From the NCBI RefSeq assembly GCF_047663525.1, contig NC_092603.1:413501-477500 (forward strand): a DNA stretch of 64,000 nt. Direction: 5' to 3'. Below, piece after piece: positions 1-46,123 of this stretch. Position 1 is the stretch's first letter, and every line of letters starts with the position of its first letter. The notes under the pieces are model-generated. The model saw only the letters and a list, made by a program, of their open reading frames with translations. It made no database searches and was not told the origin of the DNA. Source of the DNA: Anas platyrhynchos (taxonomy: Eukaryota > Chordata > Aves > Anseriformes > Anatidae). The position numbers were made by a program, and so were the translations under genes.

Positions 1-7811
<7,811 letters not shown>

Positions 7812-8330
7812 GACCCCCCCCCCAAAAAAAAAACACAAAAAAAATCCAAAAAAAAGGAAGTAAGGGAAAAAAAAAAAAAAGGGGGGGTGGGGGGGGGGCC
7901 ATGGACCTGGCCTTGTGCCCCCCCACCTTAATTACCCCTTTTAATTACCCCCCCTTAATTACCCCCCCTTAATTACCCCCCTTAATTACCCTCCCTTAAT
8001 TACCTCCTCAATTACCCCCCCTTTCTCCCCCCCTTAATTACTCCCCATTAATTACCCCCCCTTATTACCCCCCACTCCTAATTACCCCCCCTTTACCCCC
8101 CCTTTACCCTCTAATTACCCCCCCCCAATTACCCCCCCTTAATTACCCCCCCTTAATCCCTCCCCCTCCTCCCCCCCTTAATTAACCCTCCCTAATTACC
8201 CCCCCATCTACCCCCCCCCCCAATCACCCTCCCCATCACCCCCCCCTCATTAGCGCCCCCCCCCCCCAATTTGCCGTCCGGTTGAGTGGAACCAATAAAG
8301 AGCCAGAACTGGGGGAGGGCGTGGCTTAAT
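7812..8330. repeat. EHMT2 3'UTR with CCCCTTAATTA repeats
   Basis: After the EHMT2 stop comes an A-run-rich stretch (7,828-7,880), then degenerate CCCCCCTTAATTACC units to about 8,270, then the poly(A) signal. TTAATTA words are palindromic. Confidence 0.8.
8294..8299 (+). terminator. EHMT2: Poly(A) signal of EHMT2
   Basis: AATAAA in a non-repetitive patch (GAACCAATAAAGAGCC), about 480 bp after the EHMT2 stop. It is the first canonical signal on this strand. Confidence 0.8.
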
Positions 8331-14000: not shown

Positions 14001-17000
14001 CTACAGCCCCCCACAGTCCCCATAGGGTCCCACAGCAGGTAGGGGATCTATAGGGGCTATAGGGGGCTATAGGATCAGCTATAGGGGCTATAGGGGGCTA
14101 TGGGGGGCTCTAGGGTCATCTATAGGGGGCTATAGGGTGGCCTATAGGGATATAGGGGAGCCATAGGGGGCTATAGGGTGGGCTATAGGGGATATAGGGG
14201 TGTTATAGGGGCTATAGGGTCAGCTCTAGGGGTTGTAGGGGGCTATAGGGGGGTTATAGGGGGCTATAGGGGCTATAGGGTCAGGAGGGTCAGCTATAGG
14301 GGGGCCATAGGGGAGCTATAGGGGGCTATAGGGGGGCTATAGGGTCAGCTCTAGGGGCTATAGGGGCCATAGGGGGCTATAGGGGCGCTATAGGGGTCTA
14401 TAGGGTCGGCTATAGGGGCATATAGGGGCTATAGAAGCACTGTAGGGACCTATAGGGGCTGTAGGGGGGCTATGGGCGGCTATAGGGTCTGTAGGGTGGG
14501 CTATAGGGGATATAGGGGGGCTATAGGGGGCTATAGGGGGCCATAGGAGCTATAAGGGGCTATAGGGTGGGCTATAGGGGATATAGGGTCAGCTATAGGG
14601 GGCTATAGGGGCTATAGGGTCGGCTATAGGGGGGCCATAGGGGGCTATAGGGTCAGCTATAGAGCCTATAGGGGGGCTATAGGGGGGCTATAGGGGGTCA
14701 TAGGGTCTATAGGGTCAGCTATAGGGGACTATAGGGGGTCTATAGGGTGGGCTATAGGGGGGCCATAGGAGTCTATAGGGGCTATATAGGGGGCTATAGG
14801 GGTCTATAGGGGCTATAGGGGGGCTATAGGGTCTATAGGGGGCTATAGGGGATATAGGGGGGCTATGGGGAGCTATAGGGGGGTTATGGGGGCTATAGGG
14901 TCTATAGGGGGCTATAGGGGGCTATGGGGGGCTATAGGGGATATAGGGGTCTATAGGGGGGCTATAGGGGGCTATGGGGTCTATAGGGGATCTATAGGGT
15001 CTATGGGGGGCTATGGGGTCTATAGGGGATCTATAGGGTCTATGGGGGGCTATGGGGTCTATAGGGGGCTATAGGGGGCTATGGGGTCTATAGGTGGGCT
15101 TATAGGGTCTATAGGGGGGCTATGGGGGCTATGGGGTCTATAGGGGATCTATAGGGTCTATAGGGGGGCTATGGGGGGTTATAAGGGGTCTATAGGGGAT
15201 CTATAGGGTCTATAGGGGGGCTATGGGGGGCTATGGGGTCTATAGGGGATCTATAGGTTCTATAGGGGGGCTATAGGGGTCTATAGGGGGCTATAGGGGG
15301 GCTATAGGGGATCTATAGGGTCTATAGGAGGGCTATGGGGGGCTATGGGGTCTATAGGGGATCTATAGGGTCTATAGGGGGGCTATGGGGGGGCTATGGG
15401 GTCTATAGGGGATCTATAGGGTCTATAGGGGGGCTATGGGGGGGCTATGGGGTCTATAGGGGATCTATAGGGTCTATAGGGGGGCTATGGGGGGCTATGG
15501 GGTCTATAGGGGATCTATAGGGTCTATAGGGGCTATGGGGGGCTATGGGGTCTATAGGGGATCTATAGGGTCTATAGGGGGGCTATAGGGGCTATGGGGT
15601 CTATAGGGGATCTATAGGGTCTATGGGGGGGCTATGGGGGTCTATGGGGTCTATAGGGGATCTATAGGGTCTATAGGGGGGCTATGGGGGGCTATGGGGT
15701 CTATAGGGGATCTATAGGGTCTATGGGGGGCTTATGGGGTCTATAGGGGATCTATAGGGTCTATAGGGGGCTATAGGGGGCTATGGGGTCTATAGGGGAT
15801 CTATAGGGTCTATAGGGGGCTATAGGGGGCTATAGGGTCTATGGGGGCTATAGGGTCTATAGGGGATCTATAGGGTCTATAGGGGGTCCTACCGGAGGCG
15901 TTGGGGTGCAGCCGCTCGTCGTTGAGCAGCGCCTAGGAGTCGCTGCTGTTCAGGTAGAGGTCCCGGTGGGGTGGGGGTCTGGGGGAAAAACCCACAACGG
16001 ACCCCAAAATACTACGGGGGGATTGGGGGGGGATTGGGGGGGATTTGGGGTCACCAAGGGGGGGTTGGGGGGGGATTGGGGGGTTTTGGGGGGATCTGGG
16101 GGGCAATTGGGGGGATTTGGGGTCTCCAAGAGGGGTTTGGGGGAGGAATTGGGGGGATTTGGGGGGAATTAGGGGAATTTGGGGTCCCCAGGGGGGTTTT
16201 TGGGTCCCCAGAGAGGGGTTGGGGGGAATTGGAGGATTTTGGGGGGAATTTGGGGAGCTTTGGGGTCCCCCAGGGGGCTTTTGGGGGGAATTTTGGGCTG
16301 TTAGGGAGCATTTTGGGGTGTTTGGGGGGCATTTTGGGTCATTTTGGGGTGGTTTTGGGGATGTTTATGGGGCATTATGGGGGGGTTGTGGGGTGTTTGG
16401 GTCATTTTGGGTCATTTCATGGCGTTTTCGGGCATTTTGGGGTGGTCTTGGGTCATTTTGGAGTGTTTTAGGGTCGTTTTGGGTCATTTTGTGGTGGTTT
16501 TGGGGCGTTTTGGGGTCATTTTGGCGTAACTTTAGGTCATTTTGGGGTATTTTGGGGTGTGTTGGGTCATTTTGGGGTGTTTTGGGTCATTTGGGGTCAT
16601 TTGGGGTCTTTTTGGGGTGATTTTGGAGTCATTTAGGGTCATTTTGGGCGTTTTGGTGTGTTTCGGGGTGTTTTGGGCCACTTTGGGGGTGTTTTGGGGT
16701 CTTTTGGGCATTTTGGCGTGGTTTGGGGTATTTAGGGTCATTTTGGGGTAATTTTGGGGGTATTTTGGGTCATTTTGGGGTTATTTTGGGTAATTTTGGG
16801 GTGATTTTGGGGTATTTTGGGACCATTCCAGTAGTTGCAGATGGAGATGCCCTGGCCCAGGGGGGTGTAGCAGAGGGCGAGAGGTTTTGGGGTCATTTTG
16901 GGGCATTTAGGGTCATTTAGGGTCATTTTGGGGTAATTTTGGGGCATTTTGGGTCATTTTGGGGTTATTTTGGGTAATTTTGGGGTCATTTTGGTGCTTT

Positions 17001-20000
17001 TTGGGGTATTTGGGGTGATTTTGGGCAGTTTAGGGCAGTTTTGGCGTGGTTTTGGGGTGTTTTGGGGCATTTTGGTGTGGTTTGGGGGTCATTTTGGTGT
17101 GGTTTTGGGTCATTTTTGGTTATTTTGGGGTATTTTGGGGTGATTTTGGGGTGATTTTGGGGTATTTTTGGGACCATTCCGAGCAAATGGATATGGATAT
17201 TGTGGTTCAGGGGGCGTAAGGGATAGGGTTGGTAGAGGTTTTGGGGTCATTTTGGGGTATTTAGGGTCATTTTGGGGTAATTTTGGGGTGATTTTGGGTC
17301 ATTTTGGGGTGATTTTGGGTAATTTTGGGGTCATTTTTTGTCTTTTTGGGGGTATTTAGGGTGATTTTGGGGCAGTTTAGGGCAGTTTTCGGGTACTTTT
17401 GGGGTGTTTTGGGGCATTTTGGGGTGGTTTTGGGGTCATTTTGGGTTATTTTGGGGTCATTTTGGATCATATTGGGGCATTTGGGGTGATTTTGGGGTAT
17501 TTTGGGTTGATTTGGGGGTATTTTGGACCATTTTGAGTAGTTGCAGATGGAGATGCCCTGGCCCAGGGGGGGTGAGGATAGGCGGTAGAGCTTTTGGGGT
17601 CATTTTGTGGCATTTTGGGTCATTTTGGGGTAATTTTGGGGGTATTTTGGGTCATTTTGGGGTTATTTTGGGTAATTTGGGGTAATTTTGGGGTCATTTT
17701 GTGTCTTTTTGGGGTATTTGGGGTGATTTTGGGCAGTTTAGGGCAGTTTTGGCGTGGTTTTGGGGTGTTTGGGGAATTTTGGTGTGGTTTGGGGTCATTT
17801 TGGGGTCATTTTGGATCATATTGGGGCATTTGGGGTGATTTTGGGCATTTTTGGGGTGATTTAGGGGTTTTTTGGGACCATTTTGAGTAGTTGCAGATGG
17901 AGACGCCCTGGCCCAGGGGGGTGTAGCAGAGGCGGTAGAGGTTTTGGGGTCATTTTGGGGCATTTAGGGTCATTTAGGGTCATTTTGGGGTAATTTTGGG
18001 GGTATTTTGGGTCATTTTGGGGTTATTTTGGGTAATTTTGGGGTGATTTGGGGGTTTTTTGGTACCATTCCAGTAGTTGCAGATGGAGACGCCCTGGCCC
18101 AGGGGGTGTAGCAGAGGCGGTAGAGGTTTTGGGGTCATTTAGGGTCATTTAGGGGTCATTTGGGGGTATTTTGGGTCATTTTGGGGTTATTTTGGGGTAT
18201 TTTGGAGGTTTCGGGGTCATTTTGTGTCTTTTTGGGGTATTTGGGGTGATTTTGGGGCAGTTTAGGGGAGTTTTGGCGTGGTTTTGGGGTGTTTTGGGGC
18301 ATTTTGGTGTGGTTTTGGGTCATTTTGGGTCATTTTGGGGTCATTTTGGGATCATATTGGGTCATTTGGGGTGATTTTGGGGGATTTTGGGGTGATTTTG
18401 GGTATTTTGGCACCATTTTGAGTAGTTGCAGATGGAGACGCCCTGGCCCAGGGGGGTGTAGTATAGGCGGGGAGAGGTTTTGGGGTCATTTTGTGGCATT
18501 TAGGTTCATTTTGGGGGTATTTTAGGTCATTTTGGGGATATTTTGGGGTACTTTGGGGTATTTGGGGTGATTTTGGGTCATTTTGGGGTATTTGGGGTGA
18601 TTTGGGGGTATTTTGGGTCACTTTGGGGCAGTTTTGGCGTGGTTTTGGGGTGTTTTGGGGCATTTTGGTGTGGTTTGGGGTCATTTTGGGGTCATTTTGG
18701 ATCATATTGGGTCATTTGGGGTGATTTTGGGCATTTTGGGGTGATTTTGGGGTATTTTGGTACCATTCCGAGCAGTCGCAGATGGAGACGCCCTGGCCCA
18801 GGGGGGTGTAGCAGAGGCGGTAGAGGTTTGACTTCATGTGGCGGGGGAACAGCCAGCGCAGGTACTCCGTGTCTGCCCCAAACGCCTCAATTCGCCCCAA
18901 ATCCACCGCCGGGTCCCGGGGGGCAGGGACCCCCCGGGGGTGCGCGGCTGGCCCCCCAAATCCACCCAGGAGCTCCCCAAGACCCCCCAAATCACCCTAA
19001 GACCTCCTCAAATCCCCCCAGGACCCCCCAAAGCCCCCCCAAATCCCCCCAAGACCCCCCCAACCTCCCCAATTCCCCCCCAAAACCCCCCCAAACCCCC
19101 CAGGACCCCCGCCAACCCCCCCCAAGACCCCCCAGCGCCCCCCAAAACCCCCAATCCCCCCCAATCCCCTCCGGGAGCCCCCAAATCCCCCCATATTCCC
19201 CCCAACTCCCCTAAGACCCCCCCAATCTCCCCCAAATCCCCCCCAAACCCCCCCAGGACCCTCCCAGTCCTCCCCCAGCCCCCCCCAAATCCCCCCAAAC
19301 CCCCCCCAGGACCCCCCAAATCCCCCCCAAACCCCCCAACCCCTCTCCCAATCCCCCCAAACCCCCCCAAACCCCCCCAAACCCCCCCAAATCCCCCCAG
19401 GACCCCCCCAGGACCCCCCAAATCACCCCCACATCCCCCCCAAACCCCCCAGGACCCCTCTCAGGACCCCCCCAAGACCCCCTAGGACCCCCCAACCCCC
19501 CTCCAATGCCTCCAAACCCCCCCATATCCCCCCAAATCCCCCCATACCCCCCCCAAGACCCCTCAACCCCCCCCAGGACCCCTCCCAGCCCCCCCCAAGA
19601 CCCCCAGGACCCCCCCAGCCCCCCCAGCTCCCCCCAAATCCCCCCACATCTCCTTCCAATCCCCCCAGGAGCCCCCAATCCCCTCCAAAACCTCCCCCAT
19701 ACCCCCCCCAAATCCCCCCGAAACCTCCCCAAATCCCCCCCAAATCCCCCCCAGTCCCCCCCCAACCCCCCCCCAAGACCCCCAGGACCCCCCCCAGCCC
19801 CCCCGGCCCCCCCTCACCGCCGGACTGCCCCATCTGGGGGCTGCGAGGGAGATGAAAGGTGCGCACGTTGTGCTGGGGATGGTGCACAGCAGCGCCCGGC
19901 AGATTAGGCCCCCTAAATTCGGGGGAGGGGGGGGCCCCAAATCACAAACGGGACCCCCCCACAAATTTAGGGATCCCCAAAAAACCCAGTGATGGGCCCC

Positions 20001-24128: not shown

Positions 24129-24808
24129 CGCGCTCGCGGCCGCCGCTTCCCAGCCGGACCCTGCGGGCGGCGCACCGCGGCGTGACGTCACTTCCGGGGA
24201 GGGCTGGGGGGCCGTTGCTAAGGGGGCGTTGCTAAGGGGCGTGGCCTAGGGGGCGTGGCGTTGCTAGGGGCCTTCCTATAGGACGAGGCGTTGCTGAAGG
24301 CGTGGCTGAGGGGGCGTGGCGTTGCTAGGGGCCTTCCTATAGGACGAGGCGTTGCTAGGGGGCGTGGCTTAGGGGGACGTGGCGTTGCTAGGGGCGTGGC
24401 CAGGTCCCGAGCCGTTGCTAGGGGCCTTCCTATAGGACGAGGCGTTGCTAGGGGGCGTGGCTACCCCCGAGCCGTTGCTAGGGGGCGTGGCTTAGGGTAC
24501 GTGGCGTTGCTAGGGGCCTTCCTATAGGACGAGCCGTTGCTAGGGGGCGTGGCCATGTCCGAGCCGTTGCTAGGGGCCTTCCTATAGGACGTGGCGTTGC
24601 TAGGGGGCGTGGCCATGTCCGAGCCGTTGCTAGGGGGCGTGGCCTAGGGTACGTGGCGTTGCTAGGGGGCGTGGCTACCCCGAGCCGTTGCTAGGGGGCG
24701 TGGCCAGGGGACGTGGCGTTGCTAGGGGGCGTGGCCAGCCCGGAGGGGGCGCGGCCAGCCCGGAGGGGGCGCGGCCAGCCCGGAGGGGGCGCGGCCGGCT
24801 GCGGGGCC
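24129..24808. promoter_or_regulatory. Divergent promoter of PPT2 and the CRAT-like gene, with a GTTGCTAGG array
   Basis: About 680 bp separate the two start codons. Next to PPT2 is TGACGTCACTTCCGG (24183-24197), a CRE fused to an ETS site. From 24,210 to 24,760 there are about 20 copies of GTTGCTAGGGGGCGTGGC or GTTGCTAGGGGCCTTCC. GTTGCTAGG resembles an RFX half-site and GGGCGTGGC a GC/CACCC box. CpG-rich, no TATA box seen. Confidence 0.7.
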
Positions 24809-24870
24809 ATGCCGCGCGCGCCGTGGGTGTGGGGGCGGCGCCGAGCCCCCCCCCCCGCGCCCCCCCCCAG
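24809..24870 (+). CDS. CRAT-like exon 1 (tentative): Arg-rich N-terminus
   Basis: ATG at 24809 starts MPRAPWVWGRRRAPPP, a short basic leader that could target mitochondria, ending at a GT at 24871. Assignment rests on position next to the divergent promoter, not on homology. Confidence 0.5.
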
Positions 24871-27800
24871 GTAGTTTTGGGGGGGGGTCCCTAAAATTTT
24901 GGGGTGGGGGGGTAAGGGTGGTATTGGGGGTTTGGGGGGGTTAATTAGGGTGGGGGGACTAATTGGAGAGTGGGGGTCATAATTAAGGTGGGGGTCATCG
25001 GGTGGGGGGAGGTCTTATTGGGTCGGGGGGGTCATAATTGGGGTGGGGGGGTCATAATTGGGGTGTGGAGGGGGTTAATTGGGGTGGGGGGGCGTTAATT
25101 GGGGTTTGGGGGGGTAATTAGGGGGGTATTAAATGAGGGGGGTCCCCAGGGGGGTTTCCTGGGGTTTTGGGGGGGGTCTCATTAAGGGGGGGGGCTCCGT
25201 GGGTCTTGGGGGGGGCAATTAGCCGGGGGGGGGGTCCCAGTAATGGGGGGGGGGTCCCCATTACATGCGGGGGGGGTCCCCATCACTTGGGGGGGTCCCA
25301 ATTACTCGGTGGGGGGTCTCAATAATACGGGGGGGGTCCCAATTTCCCGGGGGGGGTCCCAATATAGGGGGGTCCCCATGTACAGGGGGGTCTTAATAAT
25401 ATGGGGGGGGTCTCAATCACTGGGGGGGGGGTCCCAATCACGGGGGGGGGGGCAAGAATACGGGGGGTCCCCATCACTTGGGGGGCTTCCCCTCACTTGG
25501 GGGGGTCCCCCTCACTTGGGGTGCCCCCCCCCTTGCCCCCTTGGGGATCCCCCCTTGCCCCCTTGACCCCCTGTCCCCCCCTTGACCCCGTGTCCCCCCC
25601 CCAGACCCCCCCGCCCCCCCCCTGGCCGGCTCTGGGGGCGACGCTGGGGCGCTACGCGGGGGCTCTGCGGGCGCTGCTGGGGGCGCGGGGGTGGCGCGGA
25701 GCCGGGGCTGCTCCAGGCCTTCGGAGCCCCCGGGGGTCGGGACCCGGCTGCAGGAGAGGCTGAGGGGGGGCTGACCCCCCCCCTCGGCACAGGGGGCGGT
25801 GAGTGAATGGGGGGGGGGGGGTTTGGGGGGTGTAATGGGGGGAAATGGGGGGGTGAGGGGGGGATTTGGGGGAGGTTTGGGGGGAATTGGGGGGGGTAAT
25901 GGGGGGGTTGGGGGGTGATGGGGGGGATTTGGGGGGGAATGGGGGGGCAATGGGGGGGTTTAGGGGGGTTGGAGGGGGTTTTGGGGGGGTTGGGGGGGTG
26001 ATGGGGGTTGGGGGGGATTTGGGGGGCTTATGGGGGGGTTGGGGGGGTTGGGGGCATTTGGGGGGGGAATTGGGGGGGTTGGGGGACTGGGGGAGGGGGA
26101 TTGGGGGGAATTGGGGGGTTAAATTTGGGGGGCATTTGGGGCCAGTTCCCGCCCCCCCCCCTTATGTTGCCCCCCCCCAGGCATGGCCGCGGGCCCCCGG
26201 GGGTCGCCTCCCCCTCCCCGTGCACGGCAGCGCGGGCTGTGCTGCCCCCCCAGCACTGGGAGCAGCCCGGGGGGCAGCTGCGGTGAGCGGGGGGCACTGG
26301 GAGGCACTGGGAGGGACTGGGAGGGAATTGGGAGGGACTGGGAGGCACTGGAAGGGACTGGGAGGGACTGGGAGGGAATTGGGGGGAACTGGGAGGCACT
26401 GGAGGGAATTGGAAGGGACTGGGGGGGACTGGGAGGCACTGGAAGGGACTGGGGGGCACTGGGTGATAAATGGGGGGCACTGGGAGCTAACTGGGAGCTA
26501 ACTGGCAGCATGGGGTTTCCCGCAGGTTCGCAGCCCAGTTTGTGGCCGGCATCCTGGATTACCGGGCCATGGTGGGAGCGGTGGGTGCGGGGCTGGGGGT
26601 CCCTATGCGGTCTTTATGGGGTCCCTGGGGGTCTCTGGGGTCTTTATGGGGTCCCTGGGGGTCCCTATGGGGCCTTTTGGGGTCTCTGGGGGTCCTTTTG
26701 GGGCCTTTGGGGTCCCTATGGGGTCTTTATGGGTCCCTGTGGGTCCCTGGTGGTCTCTATGGGGTCCCTGGGGGTCCCTATGGGGTCTCTATGGGGTTCT
26801 TGGGGGTCCCTATGGGGTCCCTACAGCTTCCCTGGGGGTCTCTGGGGGTCCCTATGGGGCCATGGGGGTCTTGGGGGGTCCCTGGGGGTCCCTATGGGGT
26901 CCCTATAGGTCTCTGGAGGGTCCCTGGGGGTCCTTGGGGGGTTCCTGGTGGTCACTGGGGGTCCCTGTGGGGTCTCTGGGGGCCTTTAGGGGTCCCTGGG
27001 GGTCCCGGGGGGTCTCTGGGGGTCCCTTGGGGGTCTCTGGGGTCCACAGGGTCCCTGGGGGTTCCTTATGGGTCCCTGGGGGTCTTGGGGGGTCCCTGGG
27101 GGTCTCGGGGTCTTTAGGGGTCTTTGGGGCTCCCTATGGGATCTCTGGGGGTCCTGGGGGGTCCCTGGGGGTCCTGGGGGGTCCCAGGGGGTTCCAGGGG
27201 GTCCCTGGGGGTCACTGGGGGTCCCTGTGGGGTCTCTGGGGGGCCTTTAGGGGTCCCGGGGGTCCCGGGGGGTCTCTGAGGGTCCCTGGGGGTCTCGGGG
27301 GTCCCTAGGGTCCCTGGGGGTCCCTGGGGGTCCTCATGGGGTCTCCACGTGTCCCCCCCCCAGGCGTGACCCCCCCGAGCCCTGGGTGCGGGCGGTGTTT
27401 GGGGGGTGCCGGGTGCCCGGCCCCCAGCAGGACGGGGCCCTGAGCGCCCCCCGGCGCCCCCCCCCCCCGCTTCATCACCGTCATCCGCATGGGTAGGGTG
27501 GGGGGGGGCTGGGGGGTCCTGGGGGGGATTTGGGGGGGTCCGGGGGTCCGGGGATTTGGGGGGGTCTGGGGAGGGTCCTGGGGGGGTCCAGGGGGGTCTG
27601 AGGGGGTCGGGGGGTTGGGGATTTGGGAAGGAAATGGGGGTGGGGGGGGATTTGGGGGGGTCTTGGGGGGATTTGGGGGGCTGGGGGGGAAATGGGGAGA
27701 AATGGGGGTCCTGGGGGGCACTTTTGGGGTTTTGGGGGGCAATTGGGGGGATTTGGGGGTCCTGAGGGGGCATTTTGGGGTTGTTGGGGGGATTTTGGGA

Positions 27801-30800
27801 GTCCTGGGGGGCACTTTCGGGGGTCCTGCCCCCCCCACACTCCCTTTCCCCCCCCTTTCTTCTCAGGGTCCTGGTGGGGGGCACTTTGGGGGACGTTGGG
27901 AGGGATTTGGGGGGAAATGGGGGGGTCCTGGGGGGGATTTTAGGGGGCTGGGGGAGATTTGGGGGGTCCGGGGGCCTTTTGGGGTCCCTGCCCCCCCCCA
28001 ACCCCCCCTTCCCCCCCCCAGTTCTTCTCGGTGAGGCGTGCGAGGCCTCGGGGTCCCCCCTGCCCGCGGCCGCCCTGGGGGCTCAGCTCGGGGCCCTGCG
28101 GGGGGGGCCCGGGGGGGGTCCTGGGCCTGGGGGCGCTGACGGGGCAGGGACCCCGGAGGGGCTGGGGAGGGCCTACGGGCTGCTCATGAGGGGTAGGGTG
28201 GAGCCTAAGGGGGAGGGGCCTAAAGGGGAGGGGCCTGAAGGGGGAGGGGCCTAAAGGGGGAGGGGCTGGGGGGAGGGGAGGGGCTGGGGGAGGTGGGGAG
28301 GGGGGAAAGGGGGGGAAAGGGGCACTTCCGGGTGTTGGGGTGGGACTTCCGGGGTTAAAAGTGGTACTTCCGGGTGTGGGGGTGGGACTTCCGGGGTTAT
28401 GGGTGGTACTTCCGGGTGTGGGGGTGGGACTTCCGGGGTTATGGGTGGGACTTCCGGGGTTAAGGGTGGGATTTCCTGAATTTGGGGTGGGACTTCCGGT
28501 GGTTGGGGGAGGTTCTTCCGGGGTTGTGGGTGGGATTTCCGGTTTAGGGTGGGACTTCCGGTATTGGGGGCGGGACTTCCGGGGTTATGGGTGGGACTTC
28601 CGGGGTGTTTGGGCTCGAGGGGGGGTTTGCTGTTTAGGGGGGCTGGACTTCCTGTTTGGGGTCTTTGGGGATGGCACTTCCTGTTTGGGGGAGGGAGTTT
28701 GGGGTCGGACTTCCTGTCTGGAAGGGGTGAGCTTCCGGGTTGTGGGGGGCGGGACTTCCTGTCTGTAGGCCTCTTGGGGGCGGGACTTCCTGTTTCTGGC
28801 CTGATGGGGTGGAGACTTCCTCTCAGGGGGGCGGGACTTCCTGGTTTTGGGCCAATGGGGCGGAGACTTTTTCTCAGGGGGGCGGGACTTCCTGGCGCAG
28901 ACCGCCTGAACCCTGGGCCTCGATTGGTCAGATCCAGCGCAGCCTCCTGGCCCTGGCGCGTCCGACGTCCTCTGTCATGGCCGCCGGGGGGCGGGGCCCT
29001 GGGGGCGGGGCCGGGCAGGTCCTGCACGGGGGCGGGGCCGGAGCCAACGGCTGCAACCGCTGGTTCGACAAGGCCCTGCAGGTGGGCGGGGCCTGAGGCC
29101 GGGAGGGGCGGGGCCTGGGCTGGAAGGGGGGAGGGCTCGGGAGGGGTCGGGCTAGGGGCTGGGTGGGGGGGGAGGGCTCGGCTGGGGTTAGGCCTGAGGG
29201 GGCGGGGCTTGGGAGGGGGCGGGGTTAGGCCCTGGGTGGGGGCGGGGCTTCCTAAGGGGGGCGGGGCTTCCTAGGGGCGGGGCTTTGTGAGGGGGTGGGG
29301 CTTCCTGGGGGGCGGGGCTTCGGGGGGGGGCGGGGTTTCCTGGGGGGCGGGGCTTCCTAAGGGGGTGGGGCTTCCTGGTGGGGCGGGGCTTGGTGAGGGG
29401 GGCAGGGTTAGGCCCTGGGTGGGGGCGGGGCTTACTAAGGGGGCGGGGCTTCCTGAGGGGGCGGGCTTCCTAGGGGGGAGGGGCTTCATAAATGGGCGGG
29501 GCTTCCTGAGGGGGCGGGGCTACCCCCGCGGACCCAGGAGTGGGCGGGGCATCAAATATTTGGCCAATGGAGGGGGCGGGCTTCCGGTTTAGGCCCTCTG
29601 AGGGGGCGTGGCTTGATGGGTGGGGGGCGTGGGTGAACCTCCCCCTGCCCGTCCCTCAGCGATCGTGGGGGCGGACGGGGCCTGCGGCCTCCTCTACGAC
29701 CCGGAAGTGATCGACGGCGCCGTGGCCGCCGAAATGGCCGACCACGCCCTGGCCTTCTGGTAACCATGGCAACCGCTGGGGGGAGGGGCTAGTGGAGCAG
29801 GGGCTTCTCAATCTGGCTCCGCCCCCTCCCAGCCTGATGCCCCGCCCCCAAGGAGGCCCCGGCTGCCTGCCCGTGCCCTCCCCCCAGCACCTGCGCTTCA
29901 GCCTCAGCCCCGAGATCGAGCCCGAGGTGCGGCGGGCGTAAACGGCACCTGGACAGGTGGGGGATGGGGGGGTCCTGGGGGTCTTGGGGGGTCCTGGGGG
30001 TCCTTTGGGGGGTCTTGGGGGGCCTGGGGGGTCTAGGAGGGGTCCTGGGGGGGTGCCGGGGTGGTCTGAATAGGGAAGGGGGAGTGATGGGGACCTTGGG
30101 GGTCCTGGGAGGGTTCTGGGGGGTTTGGGGGGGTCTTTTGGGGGGCTTGGGGGGGTTCCTGAGCATTTGGGGCCCCCCCAGCCTGGCGGCGGACGTGGAG
30201 GTTCACTGCTTCACCCACGAGGGCTTCGGTGACGTGGAGCCGGCGCAGGCGGAGGCGCTGGTGCAGGTGGCGCTGGAGGTGGCCTTCTACAGGTGGGGTG
30301 GGGGTACTCGGGGTGGGGGGCGCTGGGGAGGGGCGCCCAGGGGGAGGAGCGAGATTGGGGTGCTGTGGTGGGGACCAATTTGAGGGGGGAACCAAGGGGG
30401 TGGGAAGCTGGGGAGGGGGAGATGGGGGGGGGGAGTTGGGGGGGGGGGGAACCAAGGTGATGGGTGATGGGGTTCAGTTGGGGGGGGGGTAGAGAATGGG
30501 GGAGGGGTTGGGTGAGGTGGGGGGAACCAATTAGAGGGGAGCCATGGGGGGGGGGGTATAATTAGGGGGGGAACCAAGTATGGGGGGAACCAATGTGTAA
30601 GGTGCCAGTTGTGGGGGACACAAATGAGGTGGACTCGGGGGGAACCTATTAAAGGGGGGACATGGGGGGGTACCAATTCGGGGGGACACAATTAGAGGAG
30701 GAACCCATTAGGGGGGTACCAATTGGGGGGGAACCAATTAGGGGGAACCAATGTGTGGGTGCGAGTTTGGGGGGGACACAAATGCGGTGGACTCGGGGCG

Positions 30801-33800
30801 GGACCTATTAGAGGGGAGGACCCGGGGGGGGACCCAATTAGGGGGGATCCAATTAGGGGGGGACCCAATTAGGGGAGGAACCAATAATGGGGGGAACCAT
30901 TTATGTGCGGAACCAGCGGGCGGGGCCCCATTTCCGGTGGGACCCCCCTGCGGAGGGTCCCTTTTGGGTGCTGGGGGGCCCCAACGGGGGGTGGGACCAC
31001 CCGGAAGTGGGGGTGCTGAGTGCGGGGGGAGCCATTTTGGGGCGGAACCGGCGGGGGGAACCTTTTTGGGGGAACCGAGGTCGGGGCCTGGTTCCCGCAG
31101 GGTCCACGGGACGCTGAGCGCCTTGCGCCCGCAGGCCCCGCCCCTCCGGCCCCGCCCCCTGCCCCACCCCCACCTGGTGCTGCCCCCGGGGCCGCTCTGC
31201 CTGCGCCTGGCACGGGCCGCGCAGCGCCCCGGGACCAAGGTGGGCGGGGCTCTGGGGGAGGGGCGGGGCTTAAAGGGGGCGGGGCTTAAAGGGGGAGGGG
31301 CTTGGGGAGAGGGGCGGGGCCTAAGGGGGGCGGGGCTTCAAGGGGGCTCTCAGGGGGCGGGTCTGAGGGGCGGGGCTTAAAGGGGGTTTGAATAGGCGGG
31401 GCCTAAGGGAGGCGGGGCTTGGAATAGGGGGGCCGGGGCCTAGGGCGGGGATTAAGAGAAGGGGGCGGGGCTAGGGGGCGGGGCTTGGGGAGGGGAGGGG
31501 CCTGGGGGGCGGGGCTTGGGATATGGGGCCTAATGGGGCGGGGCTTACTAGATGGGCGGGGCCTAGGGGGGATTGGGAGAGGGGCGGGGCTCAGGGGGCG
31601 GGGCTTAGGAGGGGCGGGCCTAGGGAGCGGGGCTTGGGAGAGGGAGGGGGCTTTAGGGGGCGGGGCTTAGTAAGGGGGAGGGGCCTAAGGGGCGGGGCTT
31701 CTTGGTGGGGCTTCAGGGGGAGGGATTTGGAAGGGGAGGGGCTTAAGGGTGGGGTCTAGGGGGCGGGGCTTAGAAAGGGGAGGGGTTTGAAAGGGGCGGG
31801 GCCTAAGGGGGGCGGGGCTTGGGAGAGGGCGGGGCCTCAGGGGGGTGGGGCTTAGTAAGGGGAGGGGCCTGAAGGGTGGGGGCCTTGGGGTGGTCTTCAG
31901 GGGGAGGGGTTTGGAAGGGGAGGGCTTCAGGGGTGGGGGTCTAGGGGGCGGGGGCTGAGGGGGAGGGGATCTGGGGGGGGGGCTTCCGAGTTGGGGGGGT
32001 TGGGGGCGGGAGCTTCCTGTCTTATGGGGGCGGGACTTCCTGTTTATGCATATTTGGGGGGCGGGGCTTCCTGGGGGTGGGCGGGGTCCTGGTGACTAGA
32101 TCGGGGCAGCCCCAGGCCCTCCTCTCCCTGCTGGGGGCGGCGGCGGCGGCGAGCGGCAGCGGGCGGACGAGGTGAGCCCCCTCTCCCCCCCCCCCGTTGC
32201 CATGGCGACCGATGACGTCATCACCATGGCGACCGATGACGTCATCACCATGGCGACCGATGACATCATCACCATGGCGACCGATGACGTCATCGCCATG
32301 GCAACCGGTGACGTCATCGCCATGGCAACCCTATGGGGCCCCCATTATGAGCCCCTATGGGTTGCTATGGTCGCGGCCGCCATGGTGACCCCGTTGCCAT
32401 GGTGACCAATGACGTCATCGCCATGGCGACCGATGAAGTCATCACCATGGCAACCGTAACCGATGACATCATCGCCATGGCAACCGGTGACGTCATCGCC
32501 ATGGCAACCCTATGGGGGCCCTCATATAGGCCCCTATGGGTCGCTACTGGGGCCGCGGTTGCCATGGCTACCCCGTTGCCATGGCGACCGATGACGTCAT
32601 CGCCATGGCAACCGATGACGTCATCGCCATGGCAACCGATGACGTCATCCCCATGGCAACCACTGAGCCCCCCCCCCATGGGGTTCCCACAGGCCCTGAT
32701 GGGTCGCTATGGGGCCATGGTTGCTATGGGGCCACGGTTGCTATGGGGACACGGTCGCCATGGTGACCCCGTTGCCATGGTGACCCCGTTGCCATGGTGA
32801 CCCCGTTGCCATGGCGACAGGTGGCGGCGGGGACAGGGGGCCGAGTAGGCACCCTGAGGGCCCTGGGCCTGGCGGCCGTGGGGCTGGAGCCGCTGCCGGA
32901 GCTGTTCCGGGACCCCGGCTACGCCCGGGCGACGCACTTCCGCCTCTGCACCCTGCAGGTAGCCCAAAAGAAGGATTTCAACCCAAAAATCGCACGGGGG
33001 TGATGTGGAGGGAGGTGAAAGGAGAGGGATTTGGGGTTGTAACAGCGTTAAATGTGGCAACGTAGACAAGCACTAATGTGGCCCAAAGTGGCAGAAAATG
33101 ACACAAATGTGGCCCAAAGCGACACAAAGTGACAGAAAATTGGACCTAAATAGAACAAATGTGGCCCAAAGTGGCAGAAAATGACACAAATTTGGCCCTA
33201 AATAGCACAAATGTGGCCCAAAGTGACACAAAAAGACAGGAATTTGGATGTAAAAACGACCAAAATTTTACCCTGTATAGCACAAATGTGGCCCTAAAAA
33301 GCACCAATATGGCCCAAAGTAACACAAAATGACAGAAATTTGGCCCTAAATAGCACAAATGCAGCCCAAAGTGACACGAAATGACAGGAATTTGGTTCTA
33401 AATAGCACAAACGTGGCCCAGAGTGACACAAAATGACAGAAATTTGGACCTAAATGACAGAAATATGGCCCAAAGTGACACAAAATGACACAAATTTGGC
33501 CCTAAATAGCATAAATGTGGCCCAAAGTGACACAAAATGACAGGAATTTGGACCTAAGTAGCACAAATGTGGCCCAAAGTGACACAAAATGACAGGAATT
33601 TGGACCTAAGTAGCACAAATGTGGCCCAAAGTGGCAGAAAATGTCAGAAAATTGGACCTAAATGACACAAATGTGGCCCAAAGTGACACAAAATGACACA
33701 AATTTGGCCTTAAATAGGACAAACGTGGCCCAAAGTGACACAAAATGACAGGAATTTGGACCTAAGTAGCACAAATGTGGCCCAAAGAGACACAAAATGT

Positions 33801-35694
33801 CAGAAATTTGGACCTAAATGACAGAAATATGGCCCAAAGTGACACAAAATGACACAAATTTGGCCTTAAATAGCACAAATGTGGCCCAAAGTGACACAAA
33901 ATGACAGGAATTTGGTCTGAAATAGCATGAATGTGGCCTAAAGTGACACAAAGTGACAGAAATTTGGACCTAAATAGCACAAATGTGGCCTAAAGTGACA
34001 CAAAATTACACAAATTTGGCCCTAAATAGGACAAATGTGGCCCGAAGTGACACCAAATGACAGGAATTTGGTTCTAAATAGCATAAATGTAGCCCAATGT
34101 GACACAAAGTGACAGGAATTTGGACCTAAAATGACAGAAATGTGGCCCAAAGTGACTCAAAATGACAGGAATTCGAAATGAAATGACAAAAATTTGGCCC
34201 GAAGACCCAATGTGGCCCAAAGTGACACAAAGTGACAGAAATTTGGTTCAAATAGCACAAATGTGGCCCAAAGTAGCACAAATGTGGTCCAAAGTGACAC
34301 GAAATGACAGGAATTTGGTTCTCGGTGACAAAATTTTGTTCAGAAATATGGTTTATGGGTATTTGAGGTCAGTTTGGGGCTATTTGGGGGTCATTTTCTG
34401 GGGGTTTGGGGGGATACTTGGGCTCAGTTTAATGTTATTTGGGGTCAGTTTGGGGGTATTTGGGGTCAGTTTAGTGATATTTAGGGTCAATTTCTGGGTA
34501 TTTGGGGGCTTTTTGGTGATATTTGGGGCCTTTTGCTGATATTTGGGGTCAGTTTGGGGCTATTTGGGGCCACTTTGGGGCTATTTGGGGTCACTTTTCG
34601 TATATTTGGGGTCATTTTGGGGCTATTTGGGGTCAATTTATGGATATTTGGGGTCACTTTATGGATATTTGGGTCATTTTGGGGCCATTTGGGGTCATTT
34701 TGGGGCTATTTGGGGTCACTTTATGTATATTTGGGGTCATTTTGGGGCTATTTGGGATCACTTTGGGGCTATTTGGGGTCACTTTGGGGCTATTTAGAGT
34801 CATTTTGGGGCTATTTGGGGTCACTTTATGGATATTTGGGGTCATTTTGGGGCTATTTGGGGTCATTTTGGGGCTATTTGGGGTCACTTTATGTATATTT
34901 GGGATCACTTTGGGGCTATTTGGGGTCACTTTATGTATATTTGGGGTCATTTGGGGCTATTTGGGGTCACTTTATGGATATTTGGGGTCACTGGGGCTAT
35001 TTGGGGTCACTTTATGTATATTTGGGGTTATTTTGGGGCTATTTGGGGTCATTTGGGGCTATTTGGGGTCTCTTTATGTATATTTGGGGTCACTTTGGGG
35101 CTATTTGGGGCCACTTTGGGGCTATTTGGGGTCTTTTTGGGGCTATTTGGGGTCACTTTATGGATATTTGGGGTCATTTTGGGGCCATTTGGGGTCATTT
35201 TGGGGCTATTTAGGGCCACTTTGGGGCTATTTGGGGTCTTTTTGGGGCTATTTGGGGTCAGTTTATGGATATTTGGGATCACTTTGGGGCTATTTGGGGT
35301 CACTTTATGTATATTTGGGGTCATTTTGGGGCCATTTGGGGCCATTTCGGGGCTATTTGGGGTCACTTTGGCCATTCGGTGCCAGTGGGGGGGTTGCTGG
35401 TGTGGGGGGTCCATTTGGGGCGCATTCTCCCTTTTTGAGGATTTTTCCCCCCCCAGGTGCACTCCCGCGAGCCCTGCTGGCCGCTGCGGGGGCCGCTGGT
35501 GCCCGACGGCTACGGGGTGGGAGTGGTACTCGCCCTCCCCCGGGACCCCCCGGGGACCCCCCCGGCCCCTGTCATTGACCGCCTTCGCCTGCTGCGGCCA
35601 GACCGGGGCCGCGCTGCTGGGGGGGCCCTCAGGGGGGCCCTCGATACCCTGGGGGGCTCCTGCGCCGGACGGACCCCTGCCCGGCCCCCCCTGA
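24809..35694 (+). CDS. Carnitine O-acetyltransferase-like protein (CRAT family)
   Basis: CRAT-family enzymes move acyl groups between CoA and carnitine in mitochondria and peroxisomes. Thirteen exons with GT/AG borders are proposed: 24809-24870, 25605-25798, 26181-26282, 26526-26580, 27364-27492, 28022-28192, 28901-29081, 29660-29759, 29833-29956, 30182-30292, 31101-31239, 32116-32171, 32821-32958, with a final exon at 35457-35694 (the first is tentative). Landmarks in family order: GQLRFAAQFVAGILDYRAMV, CRVPGPQQD, FITVIRM, GQVLHGGG, NGCNRWFDKALQ, GADGACGLLY, HLRFSLSPEIEPEV, EALVQVALEVAFYR, LGLAAVGLEPLPELF, THFRLCTLQ and GPLVPDGYGV. Frame breaks occur in many exons, often in C/G runs. The catalytic YEH reads YDP, and the ATYESAS..R segment is not recognisable. 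So this is a diverged paralog, pseudoenzyme or decaying gene. A poly(A) signal lies at 36481. Confidence 0.82.
24871..25600. repeat. G-rich short repeats, CRAT-like intron 1
   Basis: Mixed units GGGGGTCATAATTGGGG, GGTTAATTGGGGTG and GGGGTCCCAATTACTCGG. No exon is seen. Confidence 0.8.
25605..25798 (+). CDS. CRAT-like exon 2: N-terminal choline/carnitine acyltransferase segment
   Basis: Reads WPALGATLGRYAGALRALLG, then in other frames LLQAFGAPGG and VGTRLQERLRGGLT. This follows the family pattern LP.LPVPPL..SL..YL..L, then ...F...GGVG.RLQ..L. At least two one-base shifts are needed. Confidence 0.75.
25805..26165. repeat. G-rich repeat (GGGGGGATTTGGGGG), CRAT-like intron
   Basis: Units of GGGGGATTTGGGGGG and GGGGTTGGGGGG. 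Nothing else is seen. Confidence 0.8.
26181..26282 (+). CDS. CRAT-like exon 3: PLPVHGSAG...LPPQHWEQPGGQLR
   Basis: RLPLPVHGSAG and VLPPQHWEQPGGQLR (frames differ) match family QPVVIYSSPGVMLP.Q.F....GQLR. It ends with CG, joined to the next exon to make Arg. Confidence 0.82.
26285..26515. repeat. GGGAGGCACTGG repeat, CRAT-like intron
   Basis: About 20 units of 11-14 bp (GGGAGGGACT, GGGAGGCACT). Confidence 0.85.
26526..26580 (+). CDS. CRAT-like exon 4: FAAQFVAGILDYRAMV
   Basis: A clean match to family FAAKLIEGVLDFKVMI. One open frame, good acceptor (TTTCCCGCAG) and donor. Confidence 0.88.
26585..27350. repeat. GGGTCCCTGGGGGTCTCTATG minisatellite, CRAT-like intron
   Basis: Units of about 20 bp built from GGGGTCCCTATGG and GGGTCTCTGGGG. 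A block near 26,950-27,030 recurs near 27,200-27,290. Confidence 0.87.
27364..27492 (+). CDS. CRAT-like exon 5: CRVPGPQQD ... FITVIRM
   Basis: EPWVRAVFGGCRVPGPQQDG matches family YYQILSSCRVPGPKQD. FITVIRM matches HITVVHN after a shift within a long C run. Confidence 0.85.
27493..28020. repeat. G-rich repeat with a decoy acceptor, CRAT-like intron
   Basis: GGGGGGATTTGGGGGTCCTG units. At 27,826-27,868 a pyrimidine tract ending CTTTCTTCTCAG resembles a rearranged copy of the real acceptor and exon start at 28,000-28,030 (CCCCCAGTTCTTCTCGG). Confidence 0.7.
28022..28192 (+). CDS. CRAT-like exon 6: variable middle, LGRAYGLLMR
   Basis: Contains FFSV, then SPLPAAALGAQLGALRG, LGLGALTGQG and EGLGRAYGLLMR in mixed frames, following family QFFELDVY...PLTADQI..QL..I..........VG.LT...R..WA.AY..LI. 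Confidence 0.72.
28193..28890. repeat. Array of ACTTCCGG (ETS) motifs, CRAT-like intron
   Basis: From 28,320 to 28,890 there are about 25 copies of GGGACTTCCGG or GGGACTTCCTG, about 25-35 bp apart. ACTTCCGG is the complement of the classical ETS site CCGGAAGT. 28,193-28,320 is GGGGAGGGGCCTAAAG repeats. Confidence 0.85.
28901..29081 (+). CDS. CRAT-like exon 7: GQVLHGGG...NRWFDKALQ
   Basis: Reads IQRSLLALARPTSSVMAAGG, then GAGQVLHGGGAGANGCNRWF and DKALQ. HGGG and NRWFDK are hallmarks of carnitine/choline acyltransferases. This is the strongest single piece of evidence for the family. Confidence 0.92.
29085..29640. repeat. GGGGCGGGGCTTCCT repeat, CRAT-like intron
   Basis: Units of about 20 bp with GGGGCGGGGCTT (GC box), CpG-containing. 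No exon is seen. Confidence 0.85.
29660..29759 (+). CDS. CRAT-like exon 8: GADGACGLLYDPEVIDG, catalytic region
   Basis: AIVGADGACGLLYDPEVIDG is followed by AVAAEMADHALAF. The family reads IVAEDGSCGLVYEHAAAEG, with the catalytic His in YEH. Here that place reads Pro. The junction with exon 7 is also one base out of phase. Confidence 0.88.
29833..29956 (+). CDS. CRAT-like exon 9: HLRFSLSPEIEPEVRRA
   Basis: GCLPVPSPQHLRFSLSPEIE matches family PMVPLPMPKKLRFNITPEI. A TAA appears at 29941 in the first frame. One base further on, KRHLDR continues the expected helix. Confidence 0.85.
30182..30292 (+). CDS. CRAT-like exon 10: EALVQVALEVAFYR
   Basis: SLAADVEVHCFTHEGFGDVE and PAQAEALVQVALEVAFYR match family LDITVMVFHHFGKDF and SPDAFIQMALQLAYYR. 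One open frame. Confidence 0.9.
30293..31095. repeat. GGGGGGAACCAATTAG repeat, CRAT-like intron
   Basis: Units of GGGGGGAACCAATTAGG / GGGGACACAAATG. An area near 30,590-30,660 recurs near 30,740-30,830. 30,900-31,095 is less repetitive but shows no family match. Confidence 0.82.
31101..31239 (+). CDS. CRAT-like exon 11 (weak): RVHGTLSALRPQ...
   Basis: Position and borders fit, and VHGTLSA loosely resembles family IYGQACATYES. The substrate-binding STS-type segment is not recognisable, so divergence or misassignment is possible. Confidence 0.5.
31240..32110. repeat. GGGGCGGGGCTTAGG repeat, CRAT-like intron
   Basis: About 45 GC-box units (GGGGCGGGGCTTA, GGGAGGGGCCTAAGG). It ends with a few GGGACTTCCTG units. 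Confidence 0.85.
32116..32171 (+). CDS. CRAT-like exon 12: short Ala/Gly-rich exon
   Basis: ALLSLLGAAAAASGSGRT or, in another frame, ERQRADE joining exon 13. Family here: LL..AV.AH..YT..A..GE. Supported mainly by borders and by continuity with exon 13. Confidence 0.6.
32190..32820. promoter_or_regulatory. Array of alternating CRE and X-box motifs, CRAT-like intron
   Basis: A 24-bp unit, GATGACGTCATC then GCCATGGCAACC, repeats through this intron. TGACGTCA occurs nine times (32213, 32237, 32285, 32309, 32410, 32488, 32592, 32616, 32640). Between them lie CCATGGCAACC or CCATGGCGACC, RFX-type half-sites. GTTGCCATGG runs fill 32,760-32,815. The composite GGCAACCGATGACGTCATC closely resembles the X1-X2 arrangement of MHC class II promoters (from memory). 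Binding is inferred, not shown. Confidence 0.8.
32821..32958 (+). CDS. CRAT-like exon 13: LGLAAVGLEPLPELF...THFRLCTLQ
   Basis: TLRALGLAAVGLEPLPELFR, then DPGYARATHFRLCTLQ, matches family HLLGLKLQAIEDLVSMPDIF...Y..AMHF.LSTSQ. Its acceptor AG is the end of the upstream CRE/X-box array (GTTGCCATGGCGACAG). Confidence 0.9.
32960..34345. repeat. GTGGCCCAAAGTGACACAAA minisatellite, CRAT-like intron
   Basis: About 25 units of 45-60 bp: ATGTGGCCCAAAGTGACAC, AAAATGACAGGAATTTGG, ACCTAAATAGCACAA. It is much less GC-rich than its surroundings. Confidence 0.9.
34346..35395. repeat. TATTTGGGGTCATTTTGGGG minisatellite, CRAT-like intron
   Basis: About 40 units of 25-30 bp: GGGGCTATTTGGGGTCACTT and TATGTATATTTGGGGTC. 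It ends shortly before the last exon. Confidence 0.9.
35457..35694 (+). CDS. CRAT-like last exon: GPLVPDGYGV and C-terminus
   Basis: VHSREPCWPLRGPLVPDGYG matches family VPAKTDCVMFFGPVVPDGYG. Later TAFACCGQTGAALL in another frame fits FSLSAYNSCAETNAARL. The likely stop is TGA at 35692-35694. Confidence 0.88.
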
Positions 35695-36480
35695 CCCCCC
35701 CAAAAAAATTCCTGGACACCCCCAAAAAATTCCTGGACACACCCAAAAAAAATTCCTGGACACCCCCAAAAACTTCCCGGAGCCCACCCAAATTCCTGGA
35801 AGCCCCCCCAAAAAATTCTGCCCCCCCCCCACAAAATTCTGGACCCCCCCCCAAAATTCCAGGAGCCCCCAAAAAATTCCAGACCCCCTCAAAAAAATCT
35901 GGAACCCCCCCAAAAATTCTGGCCCCCCCCACAAAATTCCAGGACCCCCCCAAAAATTCTCGACCCCCCATAAAAGATTCCTGGAACTCTCCCACAAATC
36001 CTGGAACCCTCTAAAATTCTGGAGCCCCCCAAAAATTCTGGAAGCCCCCCAAAAAATTCTGGAACCCCCCCCAACAATCCTGGACACCTCCAAATTTTTA
36101 AACACTCCCCCCCCAAAAAAATCTGGACACCCCCAAAAATTCTGGACACCCCCAAAAATACTGGAATTCCCCCCAAATTTCTGGACACCCCCCAAAAAAT
36201 CTGGCCTCTCCCCCACCTTTTCCGCCCCCCTCCCCATTTTCTGGACCCCCCCCCAAATTTCTTCCTGACCCCCCCTTAATTTCCAAGCCCCCCCCCGAAA
36301 ATTTCGGCCACCCCCAAAATTTTCCTGCCCCCCCCCTTTACCCCCCAAACTCCTGCTCCCCTCCCCATTCCCTGCCCCCCCCTTGCCCTTCAGCCCCCCC
36401 CCATCACGGGACCAGCCCCCCGGGGCCCCCCTAGTGCCTATTTTGGGCCCAGCCGCCCCTTTTTCGGGGTCACCGCCTTG
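35695..36480. repeat. CRAT-like 3'UTR, CCCCCAAAAATTCTGGA repeats
   Basis: About 25 units of 20-30 bp up to 36,330, then a C-rich unique tail with the poly(A) signal. Confidence 0.8.
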
Positions 36481-36486
36481 AATAAA
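36481..36486 (+). terminator. Poly(A) signal of the CRAT-like gene
   Basis: AATAAA in CTTGAATAAAAACTCC, about 790 bp after the proposed stop, at the right edge of the UTR repeat. Confidence 0.75.
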
Positions 36487-44919: not shown

Positions 44920-45845
44920 CGACCGTCGCCATAGCAACCGTCGCCTAGCAACGCCCCCCCCCCCCCGCCGTCGCCTAGCAACGGCCGCCCGGTGCCTAGC
45001 AACGCCTGCCCGCCGCCCGGTGATGGTTTCCCGCCTCCTGCCGTCGCCTAGCAACCGTTTCCCGTCCCCACCGTTGCCTAGCAACGGTTTCCTGTCCCCC
45101 ACTGTTGCCTAGCAACGGCTCCCCACTGCCTAGCAACGGTTGTCAGCCTCCCACCGTCGCCTAGCAACGGCTCCCTGCCTCCTGCTGTTGCCTAGCAACG
45201 GTTTCTGGTCCCCCACTGTTGCCTAGCAACGGTTTTCCATCCCCACCGTCACCTAGCAACAGTTGTCAGCCTCCCGCCGTTGCCTAGCAACGGATTCCCA
45301 TCACCTAGCAACAGTTTCCCACCTCCCACCGTTGCCTAGCAACAGTTTCTTGCCTTTTGCCGTTGCCTAGCAACCGTTTCCCATCCCCACCGTTGCCTAG
45401 CAACGGTTTCCCACCTCCTGCTGTTGCCTAGCAACGGTTTCCTGCCCCCCCCGTCGCCTAGCAACGGTTTCCCGTCGCCTAGCAACGGTTTCCCACCTCC
45501 TGCCGTTGCCTAGCAACGGTTTCCCGCCTTCCTCCATCACCTAGCAACGGTTTCCCGTCCCCCCCCGTTGCCTAGCAACAGTTTCCTGTCCCCCACCATC
45601 ACCTAGCAACGGTTTCCCGCCTTCTCCGGTCGCCTAGCAACGATTTCCCGCCTCCCGCCATCACCTAGCAACGGTTTCCCGCCACCCGCCGTCGCCTAGC
45701 AACGGTTTCCCGCCACCTAGCAACGTTTTCCCGCCTCCTGCGGTCGCCTAGCAACGGTTTCCCGCCTTTCACCGCCGCCTAGCAACGCCCCCCGCCGTTG
45801 CCTAGCAACGCCCGCGGCGCCCAGCGGCGTCTCCATGGCAACGGC
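44920..45845. promoter_or_regulatory. Array of X-box palindromes plus E2F-like sites, PRRT1 3'UTR
   Basis: More than 30 copies of CCTAGCAAC, at least a dozen of them as the full palindrome GTTGCCTAGCAAC, spaced about 20-35 bp. Many are followed by GGTTTCCCGCC, which contains an E2F-like TTTCCCGCC. The array starts at the PRRT1 stop and ends about 130 bp before its poly(A) signal, so it should be transcribed. In RNA the palindromes would form small hairpins. Confidence 0.88.
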
Positions 45846-45977: not shown

Positions 45978-46123
45978 ATTCCGTCTTGAGCCGGGGGTGG
46001 GCGGGGCTTGCGGCTGTTGCTAGGCAGATTACGGGACAGGCGCAAAATGGCGGCCGCCCCCCCCCTTCCTTCCTCATTAACGCCCCCGTTAATTAACGGA
46101 GAGGCCCCCAATTAACGAAGTGG

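Follow-up and report, generated by a model that had tools for sequence, protein, structure and literature searches.

A CRAT-like gene with a lost active site in the major histocompatibility complex class III region of Anas platyrhynchos

A 64-kb stretch of the Anas platyrhynchos genome (C17:413501-477500, hereafter the window) was analyzed together with the whole assembly (1.26 Gb in 42 contigs). The window contains a gene resembling the carnitine acetyltransferase gene CRAT, here named CRATL, which runs on the plus strand from 25605 to about 35698 between PPT2 (minus strand) and PRRT1 (plus strand). CRATL is homologous to the choline/carnitine acyltransferases, occupies a locus separate from the genome's own CRAT, has a matching exon layout, and has lost the catalytic residues of the family while keeping residues of the scaffold. 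We read it as an old CRAT paralogue linked to the major histocompatibility complex (MHC) and kept as a non-catalytic pseudoenzyme, with frame breaks that would be mostly assembly errors, and give this reading about an even chance of being right. A first-pass annotation made from the letters alone had proposed that the MHC is linked to a second gene of the CRAT family, and that proposal was borne out; the frame breaks and the missing active site are additions to it. The gene shares its chromosome with the MHC genes and is surrounded by the class III genes EHMT2, PPT2, PRRT1, and AGPAT1. Seven matches to MHC class II beta were listed genome-wide, all at C17:2.155-2.183 Mb, 1.7 Mb from the window.

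CRATL has 13 exons, all on the plus strand, with AG acceptors at every one and GT donors at 12. The motifs by which the gene was first recognized are confirmed between PPT2 and PRRT1 (HGGG and NRWFDK in 28901-29081, VPDGYG in 35457-35525). Every exon was compared with the corresponding block of a profile built from CRAT, CHAT, CROT, and CPT2, with 60 shuffles of the profile columns as control, and 11 of the 13 stood out from the shuffled profiles with z values of 5.9 to 17.9. In the first half of the gene these are exon A, the N-terminal part, with two frame breaks (25605..25798, z 11.2); exon B, with one break (26181..26282, z 5.9); exon C, encoding FAAQFVAGILDYRAMV (26526..26580, z 8.0); exon D, with CRVPGPQQD and one break at a C run (27364..27492, z 5.9); exon E, with three breaks (28022..28192, z 10.2); and exon F, which is open and encodes LHGGG and NRWFDKALQ (28901..29081, z 17.9). 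They are followed by exon G, which carries the catalytic position (29660..29759, z 10.5); exon H, with two breaks (29833..29956, z 11.0); exon I (30182..30292, z 11.0); exon L, with PELFRDPGY and the 138 nucleotides of CRAT exon L (32821..32958, z 15.3); and exon M, the last coding exon, with GPLVPDGYGV, two breaks, and a provisional stop position (35457..35698, z 11.6). Exon J (31101..31239) was assigned by place, length (139 versus 136), and splice phase, and exon K (32116..32171) by position only. A candidate first exon, from an ATG to a CAG/GTAG junction (24809..24870, plus strand), was drawn from the sequence with no homology support. The candidate poly(A) signal is an AATAAA at 36481..36486; this hexamer occurs only three times on the plus strand of the window, the others being at 8294 (behind EHMT2) and 45972 (behind PRRT1).

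In-frame pieces joined by X, with no repair of the breaks, matched PF00755 at 112.1 bits (E 3.8e-32, cut-off 22.3), placing CRATL in the family. The same query matched CRAT with an E value of 1.1e-40, CHAT with 6e-34, CPT2 with 1e-10, and CROT with 5e-10, and its phmmer score was 143 bits against CRAT versus 121 bits against CHAT. Taken singly, three of ten pieces reached 10.7 to 14.6 bits against PF00755 and seven gave nothing, because they are too short for the cut-off; a genome-wide PF00755 search did not have the window among its loci. An alignment artefact as the source of the homology was ruled out by the shuffled profiles in 11 of 13 exons and by the unrepaired matches. Exon F as a query against IMG/VR and GTDB contigs yielded no confirmed relative, as expected of an animal gene.

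The best sequence match, CRAT (C18:10.80 Mb; human 1nm8, mouse 1ndb), shares family and two-domain coverage with CRATL. Both genes have 13 coding exons with boundaries at corresponding places, most clearly at B/C, the start of E, F/G, I/J, and L/M. They differ in that CRATL lacks the catalytic His, the coenzyme A (CoA) lysines, and the STS motif, lies on the MHC contig, and carries frame breaks. CHAT (human 2fy2), the second-best match, is 29-36% identical to CRATL, but it retains the catalytic residues and lies on neither C17 nor C18. CROT and CPT2 belong to the same Pfam family and are only 22-24% identical to CRATL. The other family loci of the genome are at C6:13.2 Mb (CHAT) and on C2 (CROT), C8, C5, and C1, with CPT names that we take from place and form. 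At C35:84.505 Mb there are also two adjoining CPT2-like fragments, which contain several stops and may represent a dead retrocopy.

The losses in CRATL fall on the residues that make the family an enzyme. His343, Lys419, Lys423, Asp430, and Glu453 of CRAT are given in PMC11852590 as conserved catalytic, CoA-binding, or structural residues. In exon G, within an ungapped in-frame stretch, the catalytic EH is DP, replacing His343 with Pro. Exon I is free of lysine, so that both lysines for the CoA 3'-phosphate (419 and 423) are missing, and Asp430 is Glu. The STS motif (552-554), in which both serines have known roles in CRAT, reads CTL in exon L (Ser552 to Cys, Ser554 to Leu). The TYES/GRT substrate region (452-465) is unrecognizable in exon J, where the alignment, including the site of Glu453, is insecure (z 0.8). 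A retained Arg518 of the RHL motif was dropped since it came from a frame-shifted exon L; read in frame, the exon is as long as its CRAT counterpart and has a Val at that place. A description of the gene as a carnitine acetyltransferase is not supported, since neither the catalytic His nor the CoA-binding residues remain. Judged by its predicted residues, CRATL cannot be an ordinary acyltransferase, because the catalytic His is Pro, the CoA lysines are absent, and STS is CTL; it belongs to PF00755 by homology, and the functional label of an acyltransferase should not be given to it.

Whether CRATL is a retained gene or a dead one was weighed against the state of its reading frame and of its neighbors. 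The chief rival to retention is a unitary pseudogene: the old CRAT paralogue by the MHC would have died out as a gene in this lineage, possibly along with PPT2, and its catalytic losses would be part of the decay; we give this a considerable chance, short of even. In exon-wise alignments the 530 aligned codons contain 13 frame breaks, spread over seven of the 13 exons, and nine of 12 exons differ from CRAT by lengths that shift the frame, as a pseudogene would show. Exons J and K (z 0.8 and 0.3) are unrecognizable against the shuffled profiles. Homopolymers show no excess of breaks (three of the 13 lie close to a run of at least five, compared with a background of 31%), leaving homopolymer error unsupported as their sole source. 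The G+A+R+P share of residues is 0.486, compared with 0.23 in human CRAT and 0.33 in the AGPAT1 of the window, and by its distance from human CRAT indicates relaxed constraint. A looser count keeps 52 of 74 family invariants, against a fraction of 0.51 for shuffled profiles, and the evidence for CRATL is genomic DNA of a single species. All of these weigh against a retained gene, and the broken state of PPT2, the head-to-head neighbor, likewise suits a pseudogene.

Several results run the other way. Within 157 ungapped in-frame codons, which were picked because they align well (again a point against retention), CRATL keeps one of five active-site invariants but 17 of 19 others (Fisher p 0.0065), a concentration of loss at the active site that speaks against decay. 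Non-active invariants in the same stretches were retained at 20/34 by CROT, 19/26 by CPT2, and 20/23 by CHAT when each was held out, versus 27/34, 23/26, and 20/23 by CRATL. Codon positions are coding-like, with a GC content of 0.585 at second positions (GC2) and 0.934 at third positions (GC3) over 364 codons. Three securely aligned exons with lost active residues have a GC2 of 0.43 and a GC3 of 0.96, which neutral decay at 0.6 substitutions/site would not leave under any of three assumed equilibria (best p 2.4e-5, 7.2e-6, and 5e-9); with exon J included, decay at 0.3/site and an equilibrium GC of 0.85 is compatible with the data (p 0.06-0.09).

The damage also extends beyond CRATL. PPT2, a single-copy gene, has seven breaks and a stop in 305 codons (13 breaks in 329 codons under looser penalties), a density similar to that of CRATL; because it is so similarly broken, the CRATL breaks do not separate assembly error from a pseudogene. 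Within the same zone, the last exon of EHMT2 (7646-7805) is interrupted by a frame break and by a TAG that falls in the post-SET cysteine cluster, with earlier exons clean, and this damage argues against a pseudogene. EHMT2 is an essential gene, and no second copy was found in the genome, where its only close relative is EHMT1 on C18. A further stop in the alignment of EHMT2 at 3630-3750 was discarded as lying beyond the splice donor. No breaks were found in AGPAT1 (265 codons) or in the end of PRRT1 (59 codons). Poor consensus is the simplest explanation for the zone from 7.6 to 36 kb, even though the breaks do not fall at homopolymers. As a separate observation, the adjoining minisatellite intron (16801-18480) contains five further copies, 86-93% identical, of an 89-bp segment from the PPT2 exon at 18741.

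The first-pass annotation had left open whether birds retained the gene or gained it, and phylogenetic analysis of the family points to an old gene. A duplication of CRAT and CRATL within birds only was rejected by the approximately unbiased (AU) test in eight of nine alignments (p 0.0005-0.029); the ninth, using frame-intact exons alone, gave p 0.09. The Shimodaira-Hasegawa (SH) test mostly keeps this duplication, rejecting it in only one or two of the nine. In unguided trees, from three alignments of the unrepaired CRATL pieces, a group of human and bird CRAT that excludes CRATL receives 96-97% bootstrap support, and the bird-only duplication has AU p 0.018-0.029. These results support CRATL as an old paralogue that, as far as its broken sequence can be aligned, split off before the divergence of birds and mammals.

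Its side within the family is less secure, with the position beside CRAT favored by the alignments at hand. The CRAT-sister placement is the best tree in seven of nine alignments. A profile-guided alignment puts CRATL with CRAT at 96-98%, with the AU test rejecting the alternatives and the SH test keeping the bird-only, CHAT, and outside positions. That CRATL, as an old paralogue, instead belongs with CHAT or predates the split of CRAT and CHAT seems rather unlikely to us. In the unguided trees CRATL joins CRAT at 65-76%, and neither the CHAT-sister position (AU 0.16-0.21) nor one outside both (0.32-0.44) is rejected. The choice of guide shifts the gene, a CHAT-only guide drawing it to CHAT at 94% and a CROT/CPT2 guide to CROT at 75%. 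An early five-sequence tree favored CRAT without rejecting CHAT (AU 0.062). The higher phmmer score for CRAT speaks against the CHAT side, as does the pairing of EHMT, AGPAT, and CRAT between C17 and C18, with CHAT on C6.

EHMT2 and AGPAT1 of the window have their partners EHMT1 (4.92 Mb) and AGPAT2 (11.30 Mb) on C18, the contig of CRAT, so that for each pair, as for CRATL and CRAT, one copy lies by the MHC and the other on the chromosome of CRAT. Paralogous blocks of this kind are expected if CRATL is the MHC-side twin of CRAT from genome duplication. Both copies of EHMT1/EHMT2 and of AGPAT1/AGPAT2 work in mammals, from which CRATL is not known. Human CRAT we take to lie at 9q34.1. The human regions 6p21.3 and 9q33-q34 are described as two of four MHC-paralogous regions (PMC1309616), and human EHMT1 and AGPAT2 are placed in 9q34.3 (PMC3502809). 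The pairing is weakened by PRRT1 and PPT2, for which a genome-wide search gave no match outside C17 and hence no C18 paralogue, and by AGPAT-like genes on C20 and C28 as well. On balance we infer that CRATL is probably the MHC-side copy of CRAT from the vertebrate genome duplication.

The retained fold residues would fit an enzyme that still transfers acyl groups through an atypical active site, but this is scarcely credible, with His343, Lys419, Lys423, Asp430, Ser552, and Ser554 all changed or absent. An origin of CRATL by recent or bird-specific copying of the standard CRAT, as the same exon layout might suggest, is refuted at the level of identity and keeps next to no chance: CRATL is only 32-38% identical to the open, 13-exon CRAT on C18 and so is no recent copy of it, far from the 95% that the first-pass annotation had set as the mark of one, whereas that CRAT is 60-89% identical to human CRAT in 13 of 13 exon matches, and the AU test speaks against bird-only duplication as above.

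On the reading of CRATL as a retained pseudoenzyme, it would have arisen as an intron-bearing CRAT paralogue on the MHC chromosome, probably at the vertebrate genome duplication, and would have lost its acyltransferase active site while fold residues stayed under selection. If translated, it would be a protein of the CRAT fold without catalysis, serving as a scaffold, binding, or regulatory partner; binding or scaffolding is the likeliest role because there is no means of CoA binding or proton abstraction. On this view the majority of the frame breaks would stem from consensus errors in 28 kb of poor assembly, where PPT2 and the last exon of EHMT2 are affected as well.

Neighboring genes were mapped with human proteins as queries in tblastn and in frame-tolerant alignments. 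EHMT2 (plus strand) enters from the left flank and reaches 7.8 kb, PPT2 (minus strand) runs from 24.1 to 10.4 kb, PRRT1 (plus strand) lies at 42.8 and 44.7 kb, and AGPAT1 (plus strand) at 52.3-63.2 kb. Human PPT2 and PRRT1 are presumably adjacent genes. Two further matches were discarded, one to PRRT1 at 40.3-40.9 kb (score 39, with one break) as noise and one to RNF5 as lying on the opposite strand in low-complexity sequence. The extra AGPAT genes elsewhere in the genome (C28:6.49 Mb and C20:11.25 Mb) are nearer AGPAT1 than AGPAT2.

PPT2 and the candidate start of CRATL stand head to head, about 0.7 kb apart, and the interval holds copies of CCTAGCAAC, which we take to be the core of the MHC class II X1 box (RFX site). 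The window holds 46 exact copies where 0.35 are expected, at a spacing of about 30 bp: 15 between PPT2 and CRATL (24260-24726), 30 behind PRRT1 (44944-45809), including full palindromes, and a lone copy at 46016. An array in a CRATL intron (32190-32820) has seven copies of GCRACCGATGACRTCA and nine of TGACGTCA in 24-bp steps, and further copies of TGACGTCA form a group at 48436-48929, with one at 24183. This intron array resembles joined X1-X2 boxes. Factors for X1-X2 boxes are RFX and CREB (PMC7922096). The head-to-head arrangement with its 15 copies of CCTAGCAAC suggests that the intergenic stretch may be an RFX-bound promoter shared by PPT2 and CRATL. The fuller picture, of a non-catalytic MHC-linked CRAT twin kept by birds and perhaps other non-mammals, with an X1-like promoter shared with PPT2 and maybe class II-like control, is a long shot.

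Among the matches listed from the open-access literature, none names a CRAT-like gene in an MHC region, and a word search of MHC papers on Anolis, axolotl, duck, and zebrafish found neither "CRAT" nor "carnitine." To our knowledge CRATL is missing or unknown in mammals, which may have lost it. Should CRATL be present in other species, a CRAT-type gene that mammals lack would have belonged to the ancestral class III region of the MHC, and CRAT would join EHMT1/2 and AGPAT1/2 as gene pairs that tie the MHC to 9q34. We know of no clear pseudoenzyme in the choline/carnitine acyltransferase family, and CRATL, if the reading is true, would be one.

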